From: Verrucomicrobiaceae bacterium
GTDB taxonomy: Bacteria > Verrucomicrobiota > Verrucomicrobiia > Verrucomicrobiales > Verrucomicrobiaceae
NCBI GenBank assembly: GCA_027487315.1
Contig: JAIYDW010000099.1
Coordinates: forward strand, 1-42,701
DNA length: 42,701 nucleotides
Direction: 5' to 3'
Below are positions 2,478 to 9,533 of the stretch, piece after piece. The notes below the pieces were generated by a model. The model was not told the origin of the DNA, made no database searches, and worked only from the letters and a program-made list of their open reading frames with translations. The translations under genes and the position numbers were made by a program. Position 1 is the stretch's first letter, and every line of letters begins with the position of its first letter.

Positions 2478-4085
2478 TCAGAGGGAAGTCTGCGATGCGA
2501 GATCAACAAATTGCACGTAAATGGGTGTTCCTGACTTCAATGTGACACTGAAGGTGTTCCGTCCATCGCGTAGAAGTTTGGAGGGAATGAGCCAGGCTCG
2601 GAGTTCCTCGGGCTTTGCAAGCATTGAAGGATAGGGGACGGAAAAGGGTTCGCTGGTATCCGGGGTGGAAGGGATTGTTTCATCATTGAAGTTCGCGATC
2701 ATTTCCGAGTCCTTGAGAGACTTGTCAGCTTGGATGCGGATGCGCATCGCTTGCTTCCAGCCCTGTTCGGGTGCAGCGAGATCGAAGTGAAACTTTGCCG
2801 TTTGTGCCGACTCGAGGAAGCGAGGAAGGGGCAGTGGCTTCATGCCGGGGGCTCGCCAGCCTGGGGCCAAGAACCAGTGCTGTGGCTGTTGCGCGAGGGT
2901 TTGGGGATCACGCAACGCTTTCAGTGCGTCAAATGGCGGTTCGCCAAAAAGGCCGCGGCCTTCGCCCTGTCCATGCTGCCGGTAGTAGGCGAAGTTGAAG
3001 AGGCTGATGCCATCGGCTCCGCGGGCATAGGCGAGATGTGCGGTGGTGTGGAGGTGCTCGCGAGTGGCCCGGCGGAAAGGGAAGACGTCGTAGCCAGTGG
3101 TGACTTTGTCTCCTTTCCAGATGGTGTGGCAGAGTTCGAAGTAAAGGGCCGCCCCGTGTGTCTGCTTTCGGATGATGGCGAGGTCGTGCTGCTGCGTGGT
3201 GAAGTAGTGGGAAGAGGCATTCACCATGTCGAGTCCAGCAGCGACGAGCGCTTTGAGATCCAGCCCTAGTTCGTCGAGTGCAGGTAGATAGCAGGGCACG
3301 CGAGCACAGAGCCAGCGTTTAGGGTCGAGCATTTGCCGCACCTCTTTGATGAGATCGGTCATGATGGCTCGGCGTTGCTCAAGCGGCGTTTCTTCGGTGC
3401 GGAAGTAGCTGTAGAAGCGGAGGAAATCGAGTTCCAGGCCATCGAGATCGTAGTTCTCGCAGAGTTCACGAATCAGCGCTAGTTTCTGCGCTCGCACTTC
3501 GGGAATGGCAAAGTTCTGCACGAGGTCTGCGCCACGCATTGAGCCGGGCTTGATGCGATACTCCGGGTGCTCCGCATAAAAGCGCGTCACGCTCATGCCG
3601 ATGCTGCTGCCTGGTTTGTCACCTTGTTTGGGATCGACGAACTCCTTTTGATGGGCGTCGTTCATGCGGAGGGAGATGAAGGCGGCCTGCCCCTTTGCTC
3701 GACAACGGTCGATGAAGACTTTTACGATATCACCGCCGTTGAGTACGAACTGACCGAATGAATCCGGCTTCTGTTGGTAGCGCTCTTTGATCCATGCGTA
3801 GTGCTCGTTCAAGTCGATCACCTTGCTCGGCCACATCGGCACCACGCCGAGTCCGGGTTGAAGAAAATGAGCGTCCACAAGACCGGCGACCTCATCGACC
3901 GTGGCTTCGAGCATTTCTTTCCTGAAGGGTTCGCGGGCGGCGTGGAAGGGACTCACGCACGAGGTGATGTTGGTTGTGTCGTTGCTGTAGAGCACGCGGA
4001 ACGGTGCCTTACGAGCTACGCCTTCAGCGAGCAACGGGGTAGCAGCAGTTGCTGCGGCTGTGTGGAGGAAGTGACGGCGATTCAT
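2478..4085 (-). CDS. Exported glycoside-hydrolase-like (GHL10 / TIM-barrel) protein
   Basis: This 535-residue protein begins MNRRHFLHTAAATAATPLLA, a twin-arginine-like signal peptide, so it is probably exported folded. The body resembles the family-10-like glycosyl hydrolases (GHL10): a strand-like VLYSND start, and DGLELDFLRFYSYF at residues 215-228, which resembles the D-G-x-x-x-D barrel-strand motif carrying acidic residues in those enzymes. LCARVPCYLPALDELGLDLKALV and the strand-like ADGISLFNFAYY also fit a TIM barrel. About 120 C-terminal residues look like a beta-sandwich. Its start codon overlaps the stop of the upstream ATPase by 4 bp (ATGA, 4082-4085), indicating translational coupling to an ATPase operon, which is odd for an exported enzyme. 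Substrate and activity are unknown. Confidence 0.6.
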   Translation of the reverse strand: MNRRHFLHTAAATAATPLLAEGVARKAPFRVLYSNDTTNITSCVSPFHAAREPFRKEMLEATVDEVAGLVDAHFLQPGLGVVPMWPSKVIDLNEHYAWIKERYQQKPDSFGQFVLNGGDIVKVFIDRCRAKGQAAFISLRMNDAHQKEFVDPKQGDKPGSSIGMSVTRFYAEHPEYRIKPGSMRGADLVQNFAIPEVRAQKLALIRELCENYDLDGLELDFLRFYSYFRTEETPLEQRRAIMTDLIKEVRQMLDPKRWLCARVPCYLPALDELGLDLKALVAAGLDMVNASSHYFTTQQHDLAIIRKQTHGAALYFELCHTIWKGDKVTTGYDVFPFRRATREHLHTTAHLAYARGADGISLFNFAYYRQHGQGEGRGLFGEPPFDALKALRDPQTLAQQPQHWFLAPGWRAPGMKPLPLPRFLESAQTAKFHFDLAAPEQGWKQAMRIRIQADKSLKDSEMIANFNDETIPSTPDTSEPFSVPYPSMLAKPEELRAWLIPSKLLRDGRNTFSVTLKSGTPIYVQFVDLASQTSL

Positions 4086-6811
4086 TGAGGCTCCGTCTTG
4101 GCGATGCCAAAGCGTCGCTTGGTTTCCGGGCTGAGGTCTTGCTCCAGCGCCTTGATCATCGTGGCGAAGTCGGGGTCAAGTTTGCTGAGGCTTTGGGCGC
4201 GTGCGTCGGGAGGAAGTTCGAGGTGGTTAAGCCAGCCTTCGATCAACGTGTTGATATGATCGAAGTTGGGGATTTCATTGCCAAACATGCTGGGCAGTTC
4301 GGACAACAGATCGCGGACGACCGGCGGTGCGGTTCCTCGCTGAATGAAGTGCAGTAGGACGAAATCAAGTTCCTCCAACGGGCTCGCCCATTCGCGAGTC
4401 TTGAGTTCGTTGAAGAACGCTATCCCCTCTCGAAAAGCCTGTGCATGGGGGAGCGTCGCGAGATGCTGCCCCAGCATGTTAGCTAGCATCGAGATCATAA
4501 TGCTGATCTCCGAGTCCTTCCGTGGCACCATCGCATCCAAGACTTTCCAAGCGGCGTCCATGCCCTCTGTCGCGGCGACCTTTGAGACGAGCATCACCCA
4601 CGCCATGGCGAGCGGCACAGGGTCTCCGGATTGCTGGGAGAGATCGGTAGCATGCAGAAGTGCGTCGATGCCTTCTCCACTCGACGCTACCCCAATCACA
4701 GCGAGCTTGAGCACCCCGAGAAGTGAGTTCGGAAGCGTTGGATCTTTGCTGGGAATGACTTGTGAAGCGGCAACTGCCGCAGCGTGGGCTCGTGCGGTTG
4801 TGCAGAAGTGATTCGCTGCATTTCTGGTGGCAAGATAGACTTCCCCAAGATGCAACAAAGGCATGAGGCGAAGGATCGGCGGAGCACTCAAGTTGCGTCT
4901 GAGCACGTCCTCAATCGCCTGACTGTTGCTTAACTCTTTGGGAGGCTGACGCTTGCCGTCCTTCGAGTATCCTAGTAGCCGTTGAAGGAGTTCGAGGTGG
5001 CTACCTTCGGGAATGACAAGCCGAGCCTTCTTCATTAGCGTGGCGGACAGTAAAAGCCAATCGAGAACTTCTTCCGGTGTCACGGGAGGTTTAGAAGTTT
5101 TGTCCCTCTCGTCCAACGCCGCCATAGCTCCCATGAGTAGAGCTAAACCCAGTGGGGTTCGGACAAGCTGCTCTGCCAAGTCGTGATTGCGTTGCTGCCT
5201 CGCAATCACTTGAAGCATGACCGTTGAGGATGCCGAAGGTGAAACGAACTGAGCTAGCGCTGCTAAATGAGTGATGGGGTTAAGTGCTGGAACGGCTTCG
5301 ACTCGTTCTAGCAGGGCTTTCGTCTCTGCGTTGTTCGCGGCTTTGGCAAATGCGAGTGTCCGCAGACGATCGATGTCTGCACGGAACGCTTCGTCAGTTC
5401 GGATGGCATCGGGACCCGTGACGAGTATTCGCAGAGTCAGGAACTGATTGAAGTGAGAGGACATATCCGTCGCAATCTCATCCCACCGCTGCCAGTCCTT
5501 ACCAAGCTTCAGCAGTCCTTCAGCATTCCGCATGCCTTCCGGCAGGCGTTGCGCATCCACGCCGCAATCCAGGCATGCGAGTTCGGCCATGAGGCGGGAT
5601 TCGGCGTGCAGGCCGTCTCCTTGGTAGCGCTCGGCAAAGCTCCACTTCTGACGAAATTCGATGGTGGCGGCGAGCAGGTCGGTGAGGATCGCGAGTTGTG
5701 GGCGCTCGCCGGGCTGTAGGTACCGCATCTTGTAGAACTGCACGAAGAGGCGGTCGGCGACGTGGTAGCGGTGGTCTTTCTTTTTGGGCTCGTAGTCATC
5801 AATGACGTAACCCCAATCGATGAGCCAGCCAAAGGCACGGGAGATGTCCTTCTGCTGTGCGCCGATGCGGGCGGCGACTTCAACCTGAGAGGCGGGCTCG
5901 CCGCCGCGGACGAGGGCGTCGAAGACTTTGCGCGTGTTCACGGGCATGCGCTCGAGCAGGGCGCGGTAGTAGTCCGTCATGCGGTCGAGCGTGGCGGTGA
6001 GGTCGGTGCTGGCTCCGAGCGGGTCCTGCTCATCCAGGATCGCACCTGCCATCACGGCGGCGACGCGGGCATTGCCGCCCGTGAAGCGACTATAAGCATC
6101 AATGCGGGCAAGCTGATTGTCCGTGGGCACTTTATTGATGCGGCGGGCACGGCGAGTGAGGTAGTCGCGATGGCCGGTGATGTCCCAGCGCGGGATCTCA
6201 TGATGCTGGAACTGGCGGAACATACGCTGCTCGTAGTCTTCATCGAAGGCCCCCTCGACAGCGGTGGCTACGAGCATGATTCGCGGCTCATTTTCCATCA
6301 GCTTACGCAGGCGGGAGCTGCTTGCTTCGTCATCAAACGCCTGTTCCATCAGCGCATCAAAATTCTCCACGCCAATCACCAGCAGCGGACCTGTGTAAGC
6401 GGTCATGAGAGAGGCGATGGCGTCATCCCATGCCGCAGACGGGTCAGCGACCTGCCAGGAGGGTGGTCTGCCGATGTCATGAGGAGTCTGCGGAAGTAGG
6501 CGCTTCACCTCGTTGATGAATTCATGGCCGGCGAAGACGTTGGAGTGCTCTTCGGGAAGAAGGACGAAGGTGACTTCTGAGCCGACCTGCTCTTTGAAAG
6601 TGACCTGCACAAGGCGGAGGAAGAAGGACTTGCCAGCGCCACGCGGTCCGGTGACTAGCCAGTGTTTGCCTGCTGCGGGCTTTTCCAAGCGTGAGCGGAT
6701 GTCTTGGAACAGGTTTTTCAATATCTCCTCGCGCCCGGTGCTGAGAGCCAGCACGGTCTCGTCGTCCATGGCGCGAGGATTGAACCAGGGGATGTCTTTG
6801 GAAGAACTCAT
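4082..6811 (-). CDS. Large P-loop (AAA+/STAND-like) ATPase with winged helix and helical C-terminus
   Basis: From the ATG at 6811 the product is 909 residues. That start makes a 4-bp ATGA overlap with the upstream ATPase; the in-frame ATG at 6838 would add nine residues. Walker A is GPRGAGKS at residues 55-62. The Walker B region is LLVIGVENFD at about 143-152, with Glu-Asn where Asp-Glu is usual. A winged-helix-like stretch follows around residues 310-370 (SQVEVAARIGAQQKDISRAF, then DHRYHVADRLF). The remaining 500 or so residues are helical and alanine/leucine-rich, suggesting TPR-like repeats. This order (NTPase, winged helix, helical repeat) resembles STAND or archaeal-type ATPases that sense a ligand or partner. 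No nuclease, protease or other effector domain was recognised. Specific function is unknown. Confidence 0.7.
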   Translation of the reverse strand: MSSSKDIPWFNPRAMDDETVLALSTGREEILKNLFQDIRSRLEKPAAGKHWLVTGPRGAGKSFFLRLVQVTFKEQVGSEVTFVLLPEEHSNVFAGHEFINEVKRLLPQTPHDIGRPPSWQVADPSAAWDDAIASLMTAYTGPLLVIGVENFDALMEQAFDDEASSSRLRKLMENEPRIMLVATAVEGAFDEDYEQRMFRQFQHHEIPRWDITGHRDYLTRRARRINKVPTDNQLARIDAYSRFTGGNARVAAVMAGAILDEQDPLGASTDLTATLDRMTDYYRALLERMPVNTRKVFDALVRGGEPASQVEVAARIGAQQKDISRAFGWLIDWGYVIDDYEPKKKDHRYHVADRLFVQFYKMRYLQPGERPQLAILTDLLAATIEFRQKWSFAERYQGDGLHAESRLMAELACLDCGVDAQRLPEGMRNAEGLLKLGKDWQRWDEIATDMSSHFNQFLTLRILVTGPDAIRTDEAFRADIDRLRTLAFAKAANNAETKALLERVEAVPALNPITHLAALAQFVSPSASSTVMLQVIARQQRNHDLAEQLVRTPLGLALLMGAMAALDERDKTSKPPVTPEEVLDWLLLSATLMKKARLVIPEGSHLELLQRLLGYSKDGKRQPPKELSNSQAIEDVLRRNLSAPPILRLMPLLHLGEVYLATRNAANHFCTTARAHAAAVAASQVIPSKDPTLPNSLLGVLKLAVIGVASSGEGIDALLHATDLSQQSGDPVPLAMAWVMLVSKVAATEGMDAAWKVLDAMVPRKDSEISIMISMLANMLGQHLATLPHAQAFREGIAFFNELKTREWASPLEELDFVLLHFIQRGTAPPVVRDLLSELPSMFGNEIPNFDHINTLIEGWLNHLELPPDARAQSLSKLDPDFATMIKALEQDLSPETKRRFGIAKTEPQ

Positions 6812-7962
6812 GAGATACCACGGGATGCGCGCCACCACTGACGCAGGAGGTTCAGGGTGAAGACAGAGCGGAAGTCAGTGCCCTCCATGATGAAGTTGTC
6901 GTATTGCAGCTTCGTGACTAAAGCGCGCTCGGCCATGTTGAGCTGTAGTTGGGCACCGCCTGCGTCGCCTTTTGCCACACTATCGAGGATGCGCTCGACG
7001 ATGGACAGCTCCTCCGTGGTGTAGTTTTTCGCTAAGCGCTCATCGAATTGCGTCAAGAAAGCACGCCGGATCTCGGGCAGGACTTTGCTGTGGAGAACTG
7101 CGCTGGCATCGCTCGGGCGTGCAAGCAGGCGCAGGTGCTGCTCGGCAATGTTCAAGAATTCCGGCACGAAGTCGGGGAGAAGGGTGAGCGCGGCATTCAG
7201 GGCCGCATCCTCATTGCCAGGAGTATCCTTGAGCCGTTCGGTGAGGAATGAGCGTGCTTCTTCTTCGCTGAAAGGATCGACACGATGACGAATGAGCCCG
7301 CCGAGGACGGTGTGGGGAATTTTGTGCAGTGTTAGCAGGTTCTCCATGCTCACGGAGCCAGCGATGATCATCCGCAGACCGGCATCACGCAGCTTCCTCA
7401 AGCTGGCGAGAGTGAGGGTGAGTTCGGCGTCCGAGATGTTCCGTGCGATGAGGTTTTCCAGCATGAAGGGAAGCTCATCGATGCCGAGCACAGGCAGCTC
7501 TTGATAGGGGCGGCTGGCAAGCACGCGCTCCAGTGCCTCGGCTATGGGCTGCCAGTAGCGGGGCAGGGATTCCTGGGCTTCACGAAGCTCGGTCTCCGCC
7601 ATCTCGGGCACGCCAACGGTTTTCACCTGTCCACGAATCCAATTCATGAGGCGCGTGGGGATGGTCGTCACGCCGCCCAACTCGGCATCGAGTCGAGCCA
7701 TGATCGGCGCGGGCATCTCACGTAGCAGATCCCGGTAAAAGTCCGCGAGGCTGGTATAATTTTGCACATCCAGGAAGGCGATGGCATGGCCTGCTTCAGC
7801 ATGACGGACCAAAGCAGCCTTGGCGATTTGGCTTTTGCCAGTGCGGCGGATGCCTGTGAGCAGGACACTTTGCCCCCTACTCCAGCAGTAAAGGATGCGC
7901 TGGAGGTCAGGCTCACGGAAGCGGAAGTGAGGATTGTGGAGACGAGAAGGTGTGGTGGGCAT
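6808..7962 (-). CDS. P-loop ATPase (archaeal ATPase / AAA-like), first gene of the two-ATPase operon
   Basis: This 384-residue ATPase has Walker A GIRRTGKS at residues 37-44 (Lys43), Walker B LGIDE at 159-163 (Asp162, Glu163) and a sensor-1-like MIIAGS at 198-203. The pattern, with the N-terminal FREPDLQRIL helix before the P-loop, resembles the archaeal ATPase family (PF01637-like). The C-terminal 120 residues are helical, with no recognised effector domain. It is first in a coupled operon and overlaps the larger ATPase by 4 bp (6808-6811), so the two proteins are probably made together and may form one complex. The start at 7962 has a weak AGAAG Shine-Dalgarno 5-9 bp upstream, and a palindromic promoter begins 9 bp upstream. 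Biological role unknown. Confidence 0.75.
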   Translation of the reverse strand: MPTTPSRLHNPHFRFREPDLQRILYCWSRGQSVLLTGIRRTGKSQIAKAALVRHAEAGHAIAFLDVQNYTSLADFYRDLLREMPAPIMARLDAELGGVTTIPTRLMNWIRGQVKTVGVPEMAETELREAQESLPRYWQPIAEALERVLASRPYQELPVLGIDELPFMLENLIARNISDAELTLTLASLRKLRDAGLRMIIAGSVSMENLLTLHKIPHTVLGGLIRHRVDPFSEEEARSFLTERLKDTPGNEDAALNAALTLLPDFVPEFLNIAEQHLRLLARPSDASAVLHSKVLPEIRRAFLTQFDERLAKNYTTEELSIVERILDSVAKGDAGGAQLQLNMAERALVTKLQYDNFIMEGTDFRSVFTLNLLRQWWRASRGIS

Positions 7963-7970
7963 AATCTTCT

Positions 7971-8009
7971 ATTCATATGAATTATAATTCATATGAATAA
8001 GATGCGCAA
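7971..8009 (-). promoter_or_regulatory. Promoter inside a 28-bp perfect palindrome (two ATTCATATGAAT boxes)
   Basis: Two identical 12-bp palindromes, ATTCATATGAAT, lie at 7971-7982 and 7987-7998, separated by TATA, so all 28 bp are their own reverse complement. On the minus strand TATAAT (7986-7981) forms a consensus -10 box across the junction, with TTGCGC (8009-8004) as a possible -35 at 17 bp. Transcription would start near 7974, leaving about a dozen leader bases. A repressor dimer pair on the boxes would block the -10 directly. The palindrome is certain; promoter and operator roles are inferred. The -10 is symmetric, but no plus-strand gene follows. Confidence 0.7.
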
Positions 8010-8058
8010 GCGATGATTTCTGCCTATTGCGATTCAGCTCGATTCATGGGGCCGGTCG

Positions 8059-8079
8059 GCTTCGATTGCCAATCGAAGC
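8059..8079. repeat. Perfect hairpin abutting the sulfatase stop codon
   Basis: GCTTCGATTG (8059-8068) and CAATCGAAGC (8070-8079) form a 10-bp stem around a single C. The right arm meets the TAG stop of the sulfatase (minus, 8081-8079). There is no T-tract on the minus strand, so it is a poor intrinsic terminator. It looks like a dispersed REP-type palindrome or an mRNA 3'-end stabilising hairpin. Confidence 0.5.
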
Positions 8080-9533
8080 TACGGTAGCGCGGCTTTCCAT
8101 CCGCTGTGGAGTTGTGCGGCGAGCTGCTTCACGGTCTCCGTGTGGGCGGGATCATTCGCTAGATTCACGGTCTCTTGGGGATCGTTGAGTTCGTCGTAGA
8201 GTTCGACTCCGGTGGGCTTTCCTTTCAAGTCATGCCATTCGGTGTAGCGCCAGCGGTCGGTGCGGATGCTGCGGCCCATGTAGGGTGGTTTGCCGGTGCG
8301 GAGGTATTGGCTGAAGGCGGCTTTCTTCCACGCTTGATTGGGCTTTTCGAGCAATGGGGCGAAGTTGGTGCCTTCGAGATGTTTCGGCAATGGCAGCGCA
8401 CAGAGTTGGGCGAGGGTGGGGTAGAGGTCGACCAGTTCCACGAGTGCCAGTGTGCGCTGTCCGGCGGTTTTCATGCCGGGAGTGCTGACAATGAGCGGCA
8501 CGCGGGTACCATGCTCGAAGTTGGTCATCTTGGTGAAGACCCCGTTTTCGCCGAGGTGATAGCCGTGATCAGACCAGAAAACGATGAGGGTGCTTTCACG
8601 CAGTCCGAGCCGATCCAGTTCATCGAGCACTCGACCAAGCTGTGCGTCCATGAAGCTGACGCAGGCGCGATAGCCGCGGATGAGCTTCAAGGCCATGGCG
8701 TCGGAGATGGGGCCGTTTTCAGGCACGGTGCCGTAGCTGCGCAGTTCGTAGTTGTTGTGAAAGGCTGGCTCGGGCGCGTTTTTGGGGCGCTCTGGATTGG
8801 TGGCGAGTTTGATACTGTTTTCGGGATACAGATCCCAATATTTTTGCGGACAGGTGAAAGGCAGGTGTGGCTTCACAAAGCCGACGCCGAGGAAGAAGGG
8901 CTTCGCTTCGGCTTTGAGTCGCTGGAGCGTTTCGATCGCCTTGCTGGCGGTTTGCGCATCGGGATATGAGGTGTCGGGTTCATTGGCGGCTTCGAAGGGT
9001 GCGGCGCGGAGTTGTTTGGGCTGTTGGGCTTTGGGCAGTGCTTTGAGCTGCTTTACGTAGTCGAGTGAATCTTGGGTAAACCAATGGCGATAGGGTTCGC
9101 CATGGAACCAGGCTGGCTCGGTCCAAGATTGGGGGTCGTCGCCGGGTTCCCGCTCGCTGTGGTGGAAGATTTTGCCGAGGGAGAGACTGGTGTAACCGTG
9201 GTTCTTGAAGTGTTGCGGCAGCGAGATCACGTCTGGCATGTTGGGGCGCATGAAGTGCTGATTGTCGAACACCTGGGTGGTGTCAGGGCGTGAGCCGCTG
9301 AGCAGGCTGCTGCGTGATGGATTGCAGACGGCGACCTGACAGTAGGCGCGTTCAAACAATAGGCCACTGGCGGCGAGGCGGTCGATGTTTGGTGTTTTCA
9401 TGTGCGCGGCGCCGTAGCAGGCGAGTTCCGGGCGAAGATCATCGACGGCGATGAAGAGGACGTTGAGCGGCTGCGCCGCTAATGACGAATGAAGAATGAC
9501 GAATGACGAAAGCTGGATGAGTAGTCGTGGCAT
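8079..9533 (-). CDS. Secreted sulfatase, iduronate-2-sulfatase-like
   Basis: This is a type I sulfatase hydrolysing a sulfate ester on a carbohydrate. With the ATG at 9533 it has 484 residues and a signal peptide ending near SLAAQP. NVLFIAVDDLRPELACYG gives the metal-binding Asp pair, and CNPSR at residues 70-74 is the C-x-P-S-R motif in which Cys70 becomes formylglycine. FWSDHGYHLGENG near the middle supplies further metal and sulfate ligands, and FLGVGFVKPHLPF matches iduronate-2-sulfatase-like members. An upstream in-frame ATG at 9596 would overlap the preceding gene and delay the signal peptide. The chosen start lies 4 bp after the neighbouring sulfatase stop, so they are co-translated. 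The actual substrate is unknown. Confidence 0.9.
   Translation of the reverse strand: MPRLLIQLSSFVILHSSLAAQPLNVLFIAVDDLRPELACYGAAHMKTPNIDRLAASGLLFERAYCQVAVCNPSRSSLLSGSRPDTTQVFDNQHFMRPNMPDVISLPQHFKNHGYTSLSLGKIFHHSEREPGDDPQSWTEPAWFHGEPYRHWFTQDSLDYVKQLKALPKAQQPKQLRAAPFEAANEPDTSYPDAQTASKAIETLQRLKAEAKPFFLGVGFVKPHLPFTCPQKYWDLYPENSIKLATNPERPKNAPEPAFHNNYELRSYGTVPENGPISDAMALKLIRGYRACVSFMDAQLGRVLDELDRLGLRESTLIVFWSDHGYHLGENGVFTKMTNFEHGTRVPLIVSTPGMKTAGQRTLALVELVDLYPTLAQLCALPLPKHLEGTNFAPLLEKPNQAWKKAAFSQYLRTGKPPYMGRSIRTDRWRYTEWHDLKGKPTGVELYDELNDPQETVNLANDPAHTETVKQLAAQLHSGWKAALP
9481..9510. repeat. Short direct repeats within the sulfatase signal-peptide codons
   Basis: GAATGACGAA-type units recur three times in 30 bp (AATGACGAATGA, then GAATGAC, then GAATGACGAA). 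They encode the SSFVILHSSL core of the sulfatase signal peptide. Such repeats can expand or contract in multiples of the unit, which would lengthen or break the hydrophobic core. Confidence 0.5.

Follow-up and report, generated by a model that had tools for sequence, protein, structure and literature searches.

Among the described systems that resemble the operon reported here are the autorepressing regulators of the MarR and ArsR/SmtB groups, which share with it a winged-helix similarity, short palindromes over the promoter and the architecture of a self-regulated operon. Those regulators, however, are free small dimers, whereas the winged helix considered here is embedded in an ATPase of 918 aa with a repeat-rich C-terminus, which is the predicted binder. 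The autoregulation of AbiEi-type antitoxins likewise involves a two-gene operon that carries several inverted repeats in its own promoter, to which the product is expected to bind (PMC7319586), although the protein families are different and no toxin was identified in the ATPase operon. Orc1-2 of Sulfolobus, a transcription regulator of the AAA+/winged-helix kind, binds its own promoter (PMC9738581), and a protein combining AAA+ and winged-helix domains is predicted to act on its own promoter in the ATPase operon as well. Orc1-2 is archaeal, however, and recognizes the hexanucleotide ANTTTC rather than tandem palindromes.

As for the ATPases themselves, the consulted passages of PMC10853773 describe predicted conflict systems in which an active Orc/CDC6-like ATPase is accompanied by a second copy with an intact Walker A and a disrupted Walker B. 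The present pair is composed in the same manner, an active-type ATPase lying beside one whose Walker A is intact but whose Walker B is disrupted: the Walker B motif is DE in 23 of 23 small ATPases and [DE]N in 31 of 32 large ones. Unlike our pair, those pairs are accompanied by a KAP NTPase, and those passages make no mention of operators. The STAND/NLR proteins (NACHT, nSTAND) resemble the large ATPase in having an NTPase, a winged helix and a TPR-like, fast-diverging C-terminus, but no effector domain was found in the large ATPases, and the matches of the protein encoded here are weak.

The two-ATPase operon

The window, that is, the whole stretch of 42,701 nucleotides that was analysed, contains the operon on its minus strand. 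The first gene (6808–7962) encodes the small ATPase, an AAA_22/ATPase_2-like protein of 384 aa with an intact Walker B (DE) and a winged-helix-like C-terminal end. It overlaps the gene of the large ATPase (4082–6838), a protein of 918 aa with an AAA/STAND-like NTPase, in which Walker B is changed to EN, followed by a variable C-terminal region. A putative MarR/ArsR-like winged helix, the candidate DNA binder, lies within the large ATPase (5732–5983, minus strand). Two sulfatases lie upstream of the operon, and a glycosidase-like protein and then an esterase downstream; as the initial annotation had stated, no regulator gene is found among these neighbors, nor is a regulator gene common to the surroundings of the operon in the window and in the orthologous genome G039, described below. 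No KAP NTPase or nuclease gene lies beside the window pair, and none was recognized in the ORF list around the G039 pair. The PADLOC system models gave no defence-system match, only weak matches to mad8, PDC-S01 and SngB. The A1 alignment lacks a stretch of sufficient conservation to query viral contigs, and no viral relatives of subclade A2 were found. In overall appearance, the two-ATPase operon looks like a bacterial immune-type sensor.

Judged by its predicted domains, the large ATPase has an NLR-like layout, with NTPase, winged helix and superstructure-forming repeats of the STAND/NLR type all present, the TPR matches being below the curated cut-off. TPR-like repeats were detected in the C-terminal region of the G039 orthologue, and NACHT matches occur in 20 of 32 large ATPases, weakly in the window's own protein. 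The N-terminal 400 residues are conserved and the C-terminus diverges fast (99% versus 60% identity between G000 and G047), a trend also seen in the other twelve large-ATPase pairs compared. In the comparison of window positions 4082–6000 with L029/L028, the first ~420 residues are 97–100% identical to G047 and the rest 41–82%; beyond those first ~420 residues, identity to G039 is 12–44%.

A perfect 30-bp palindrome ahead of the operon

Just upstream of the small-ATPase gene, 8 bp ahead of its ATG (7962, minus strand), lies a putative tandem operator, the perfect 30-bp palindrome TATTCATATGAATTATAATTCATATGAATA (7970–7999). It consists of a proximal 12-bp dyad ATTCATATGAAT nearest the ATG (7971–7982), a TATA spacer (7983–7986) and a distal dyad ATTCATATGAAT (7987–7998), the dyads being 16 bp apart, center to center. 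The initial annotation had described two identical 12-bp palindromes flanking TATA; the copies are indeed exact, and the perfect palindrome extends to 30 bp. The palindrome score of this upstream region exceeds those of 100 of 100 dinucleotide shuffles (z ~9.7). When the 5.87-Mb genome was searched for the 12-mer, as that annotation had suggested, the only copies were those at this site, and the tandem site also occurs once in the genome when up to three mismatches are allowed. Farther upstream, at the end of the sulfatase gene, there is a separate inverted repeat with 10-bp arms, GCTTCGATTGGCAATCGAAGC (8058–8080), which is nearly unique in the genome and is therefore not a dispersed repeat.

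On the minus strand, a possible −10 element, TATAAT (7981–7986), spans the junction of the proximal dyad and the spacer, and TATAAT can be read on both strands of the palindrome. A weak, hypothetical −35-like sequence, TTGCGC (8004–8009, minus strand), lies at a 17-bp spacer from it and falls inside the interval given in the initial annotation, which ends at 8009. This sequence matches the −35 consensus in only 3 of 6 positions and was not scored by the consensus scan, which for this reason detected no complete sigma-70 promoter in the direction of the operon.

Conservation in orthologous operons

The operon is present in two genomes of the same family but of another genus, G047 and G039. The initial annotation had made its reading depend on conservation of the palindrome upstream of orthologues, and the site is kept in both. 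In G047, whose small ATPase is 99% identical, both dyads are retained and, on the operon strand, the spacer changes from TATA to CATA, turning TATAAT into CATAAT. In G039, whose small ATPase is 59% identical and whose upstream gene is unrelated, the proximal dyad is exact and the distal one, ATAAATATGATT, matches in 9 of 12 positions in the same 16-bp register; the spacer there is TGCA, giving TGCAAT instead of TATAAT. When 68 genomes of the family were searched for the tandem pattern with up to three mismatches, three occurrences were found, one each in G000, G047 and G039, and all three precede this type of operon.

A tract of ~2.1 kb (6.0–8.08 kb, 6000–8078) is 97–100% (about 99%) identical between the window and G047, with flanks of 82–91%. 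Such a near-identical tract between two genera suggests recent recombination or transfer, and because of it we discounted G047 as independent evidence. G039, on the other hand, is independent evidence that the site is conserved. Because the −10 sequence is changed in both orthologues while the dyads are kept, it is the double site that is conserved and not the −10 box. Thus, neither the consensus −10 box nor the perfect 28-bp self-complementarity emphasized in the initial annotation holds up in the orthologues; the features that persist are the 12-bp dyad and the 16-bp spacing.

The same comparison bears on the idea that the palindrome works as an RNA hairpin, an attenuator or a translation block. 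The stem in the window's transcript is strong (−16.2 kcal/mol, z −3.9), but the large stem is lost in G039, whose distal dyad is decayed. Moreover, in other clades the short dyads stand as direct tandem repeats instead of forming a single long stem, and no terminator-like site was found. We rejected the hairpin reading, given that the stem is not kept in G039, and consider it very unlikely.

A family-wide 16-bp pattern

Distant relatives of the small ATPase (~20–30% identity) were collected, with 20-kb contexts, from 143 related genomes together with samples of the class and phylum. About 40 relatives are found in Verrucomicrobiota, nearly all of them directly preceding a second ATPase of 530–1750 aa with a Walker A motif, and most have repeated short palindromes just ahead of the ATG, in differing letters: ACGT/ACGTAYG, AATACAnnnTTGTAT, TTGCGCAA, CAACAnnTGTTG and the window's own type, ATTCA-TGAAT. 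A subclade comprising L079, L081, L090 and L092 has no clear operator. In G097, the small ATPase L021, which belongs to the subclade otherwise without a clear operator, has a palindrome with 22-bp arms, TATTCCATTTTCAAAGTATTT...AAATACTTTGAAAATGGAATA, ~36 bp upstream of its ATG.

Palindrome scores exceed those of shuffles (p ≤ 0.05) upstream of 65% of 34 small-ATPase genes, against 9% of control genes from the same contexts (Mann–Whitney p 4e-10). A 16-bp repeat period, called at ≥10/14 matches, is present in 69% of the targets, in 2.3% of 766 control genes and in 4.7% of AT-rich controls. The mean best match at offset 16 is 10.0/14, against 6.3 (sd 0.4) for all other offsets, and in the scanned range of 6 to 39 none besides 16 stands out. 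The double operator that the initial annotation placed before the ATPase pair is supported; that annotation missed the family-wide pattern with its clade-specific letters. That AT-rich promoters are prone to palindromes, as the control rate illustrates, might invite an explanation by chance; however, a perfect palindrome of 30 bp, kept in an orthologue with different flanks and accompanied by a 16-bp period throughout the family, makes chance extremely improbable.

Another explanation would be that the palindrome serves ORC/CDC6-like ATPases as a cis-acting DNA site for an activity of the replication, partition or mobility type, with transcription control being secondary. The site could be likened to an origin recognition box beside an initiator gene: ORC-CDC6-like matches occur in 25 of 32 large ATPases, and Orc1/Cdc6 proteins, which combine AAA with a winged helix, bind sites close to the genes that encode them (Orc1-2, PMC9738581). 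Yet in the family the start codon is at most ~80 bp away from the sites, which in many cases overlap −35 elements resembling TTGACA, and in the window the operon has no replication or mobility gene as a neighbor, so we regard this explanation as quite unlikely.

Operator letters follow the protein

When six operator labels were placed on a tree of 40 small ATPases, they required 6 changes, compared with a mean of 17.5 and a minimum of 14 for shuffled labels; the assignment of labels was visual, and the tree contains some long-branched rows. A label-free permutation test gave a weaker result in the same direction (10 of 500). It is with the protein clade, not with the organism, that the letters change: the organism family f1 holds five operator types, G047 holds two, and the three pairs of G104 comprise one of the ACGT type, one of the ATACA type and one in the subclade without a clear type. 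That the letters track the protein clade fits an operator bound by the operon's own protein.

The usual binder of a bacterial operator is a separate repressor, and in Segatella a WYL regulator is encoded just upstream of the ATPase pair; a regulator from elsewhere in the genome might therefore bind the site. Against this stand the tracking of the operon's protein clade across organisms, with up to five types within single organism families, and the lack of a second genomic location of the site that could form a regulon. An unlinked regulator is, in our judgement, unlikely.

Given that the site is present, unique and conserved in orthologues, that its 16-bp layout is family-wide and that it co-varies with protein clade, we propose that a private double operator, the palindrome, covers the promoter of the two-ATPase operon and is bound by a product of that operon, which would most likely be an autorepressor, and we consider this reading fairly probable. 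From these observations we infer binding, repression, the position of the promoter, a trigger and the identity of the ATPase that binds. Two dimers, side by side and 16 bp apart over the promoter region, would keep expression low. Activation of the ATPase, through its nucleotide state or a ligand at the variable C-terminus, would then release the DNA and raise expression.

Which ATPase may bind?

The large ATPase may bind through its winged helix of the MarR/ArsR type, perhaps complexed with the small ATPase, whose Walker B is intact. The large (second) ATPase is predicted to be the likeliest binder, ahead of the small one; it combines this MarR/ArsR-like domain with a Walker B that is disrupted and an NLR-like C-terminus that diverges fast. 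The suggestion, already made in the initial annotation, that its winged helix is the binder is plausible for the family: MarR_2 matches are found in 22 of 32 large-ATPase members (best 2.6e-9), and the winged-helix profile matches ArsR/SmtB/MarR structures in the PDB (smtB, ArsR, AdcR, CzrA; E 4e-6). The window's own copy is weak by itself, matching only HVO_A0261_N (E 0.04); it is divergent, yet it aligns with the family. A single-sequence model of this domain reached a pLDDT of 62 and gave no Foldseek match at E ≤ 0.001. The winged helices of STAND proteins can be purely structural.

Alternatively, the autorepressor could be the small ATPase, with its AAA domain and C-terminal winged helix. 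Among solved structures its closest relatives are two archaeal Walker ATPases, 2fna and 2qen, and relatives without a second ATPase (L106, L107) still have tandem palindromes TTACGCAnnnTGCGTAA, with a 14-bp period. These single-gene relatives, however, are very distant (branch ~5.4), and the C-terminal domain of the small ATPase, unlike the large ATPase, has no significant match to a DNA-binding HTH family. An AlphaFold model of the small ATPase from a two-row alignment was unusable (pLDDT 37). Operator similarity tracks neither winged helix more closely than it tracks the ATPase domains and does not single out the binder. Overall, the small ATPase is a possible but rather doubtful autorepressor, and we retain the large ATPase as the better candidate.

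Wider occurrence and meaning

Plasmids of Segatella, Moraxella and Methylomonas carry ATPase pairs as well. The Methylomonas pair has a site of the ACAA/TTGT type, as in its clade. On Moraxella osloensis plasmids (L117, L119), three large AACTATAnnnnTATAGTT-type palindromes lie upstream of the pair at ~27-bp spacing instead of 16, and the second gene of the L119 pair is annotated as a NACHT protein. In Verrucomicrobiota, TTACGCAnnnTGCGTAA recurs every 14 bp immediately ahead of the ATG of the single-gene ATPases L059, L060, L062 and L074, whose proteins begin M(K/R)NPF(E/Q)YGGVV. The 27-bp and 14-bp spacings mean that the 16-bp geometry is not universal outside the main family. A long run of GCGTTGCGCAAGAAT-like tandem repeats was also seen upstream of a distant ATPase homologue, L073 of G347. 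A limited search of the literature found no description of this operator class.

It is tempting to propose, at somewhat less than even confidence, that NLR-like two-ATPase modules form a broad class whose members each carry and bind their own private tandem operator in a fixed 16-bp register. The sensor ATPase would be its own repressor, and the DNA code would diverge by clade while the geometry is kept, so that each module would stay under insulated control of its own when it passes from one genome to another. What keeps NLR/STAND-like modules of bacteria silent until needed is an open question. If the proposal is true, a self-encoded operator that travels with the module, fixed in geometry and spelled in letters specific to the clade, would answer it in a general way, and the binding site would be predictable from the clade. 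Tandem palindromes with a 16-bp period ahead of a small ATPase are, in addition, a sequence marker by which such modules may be located.
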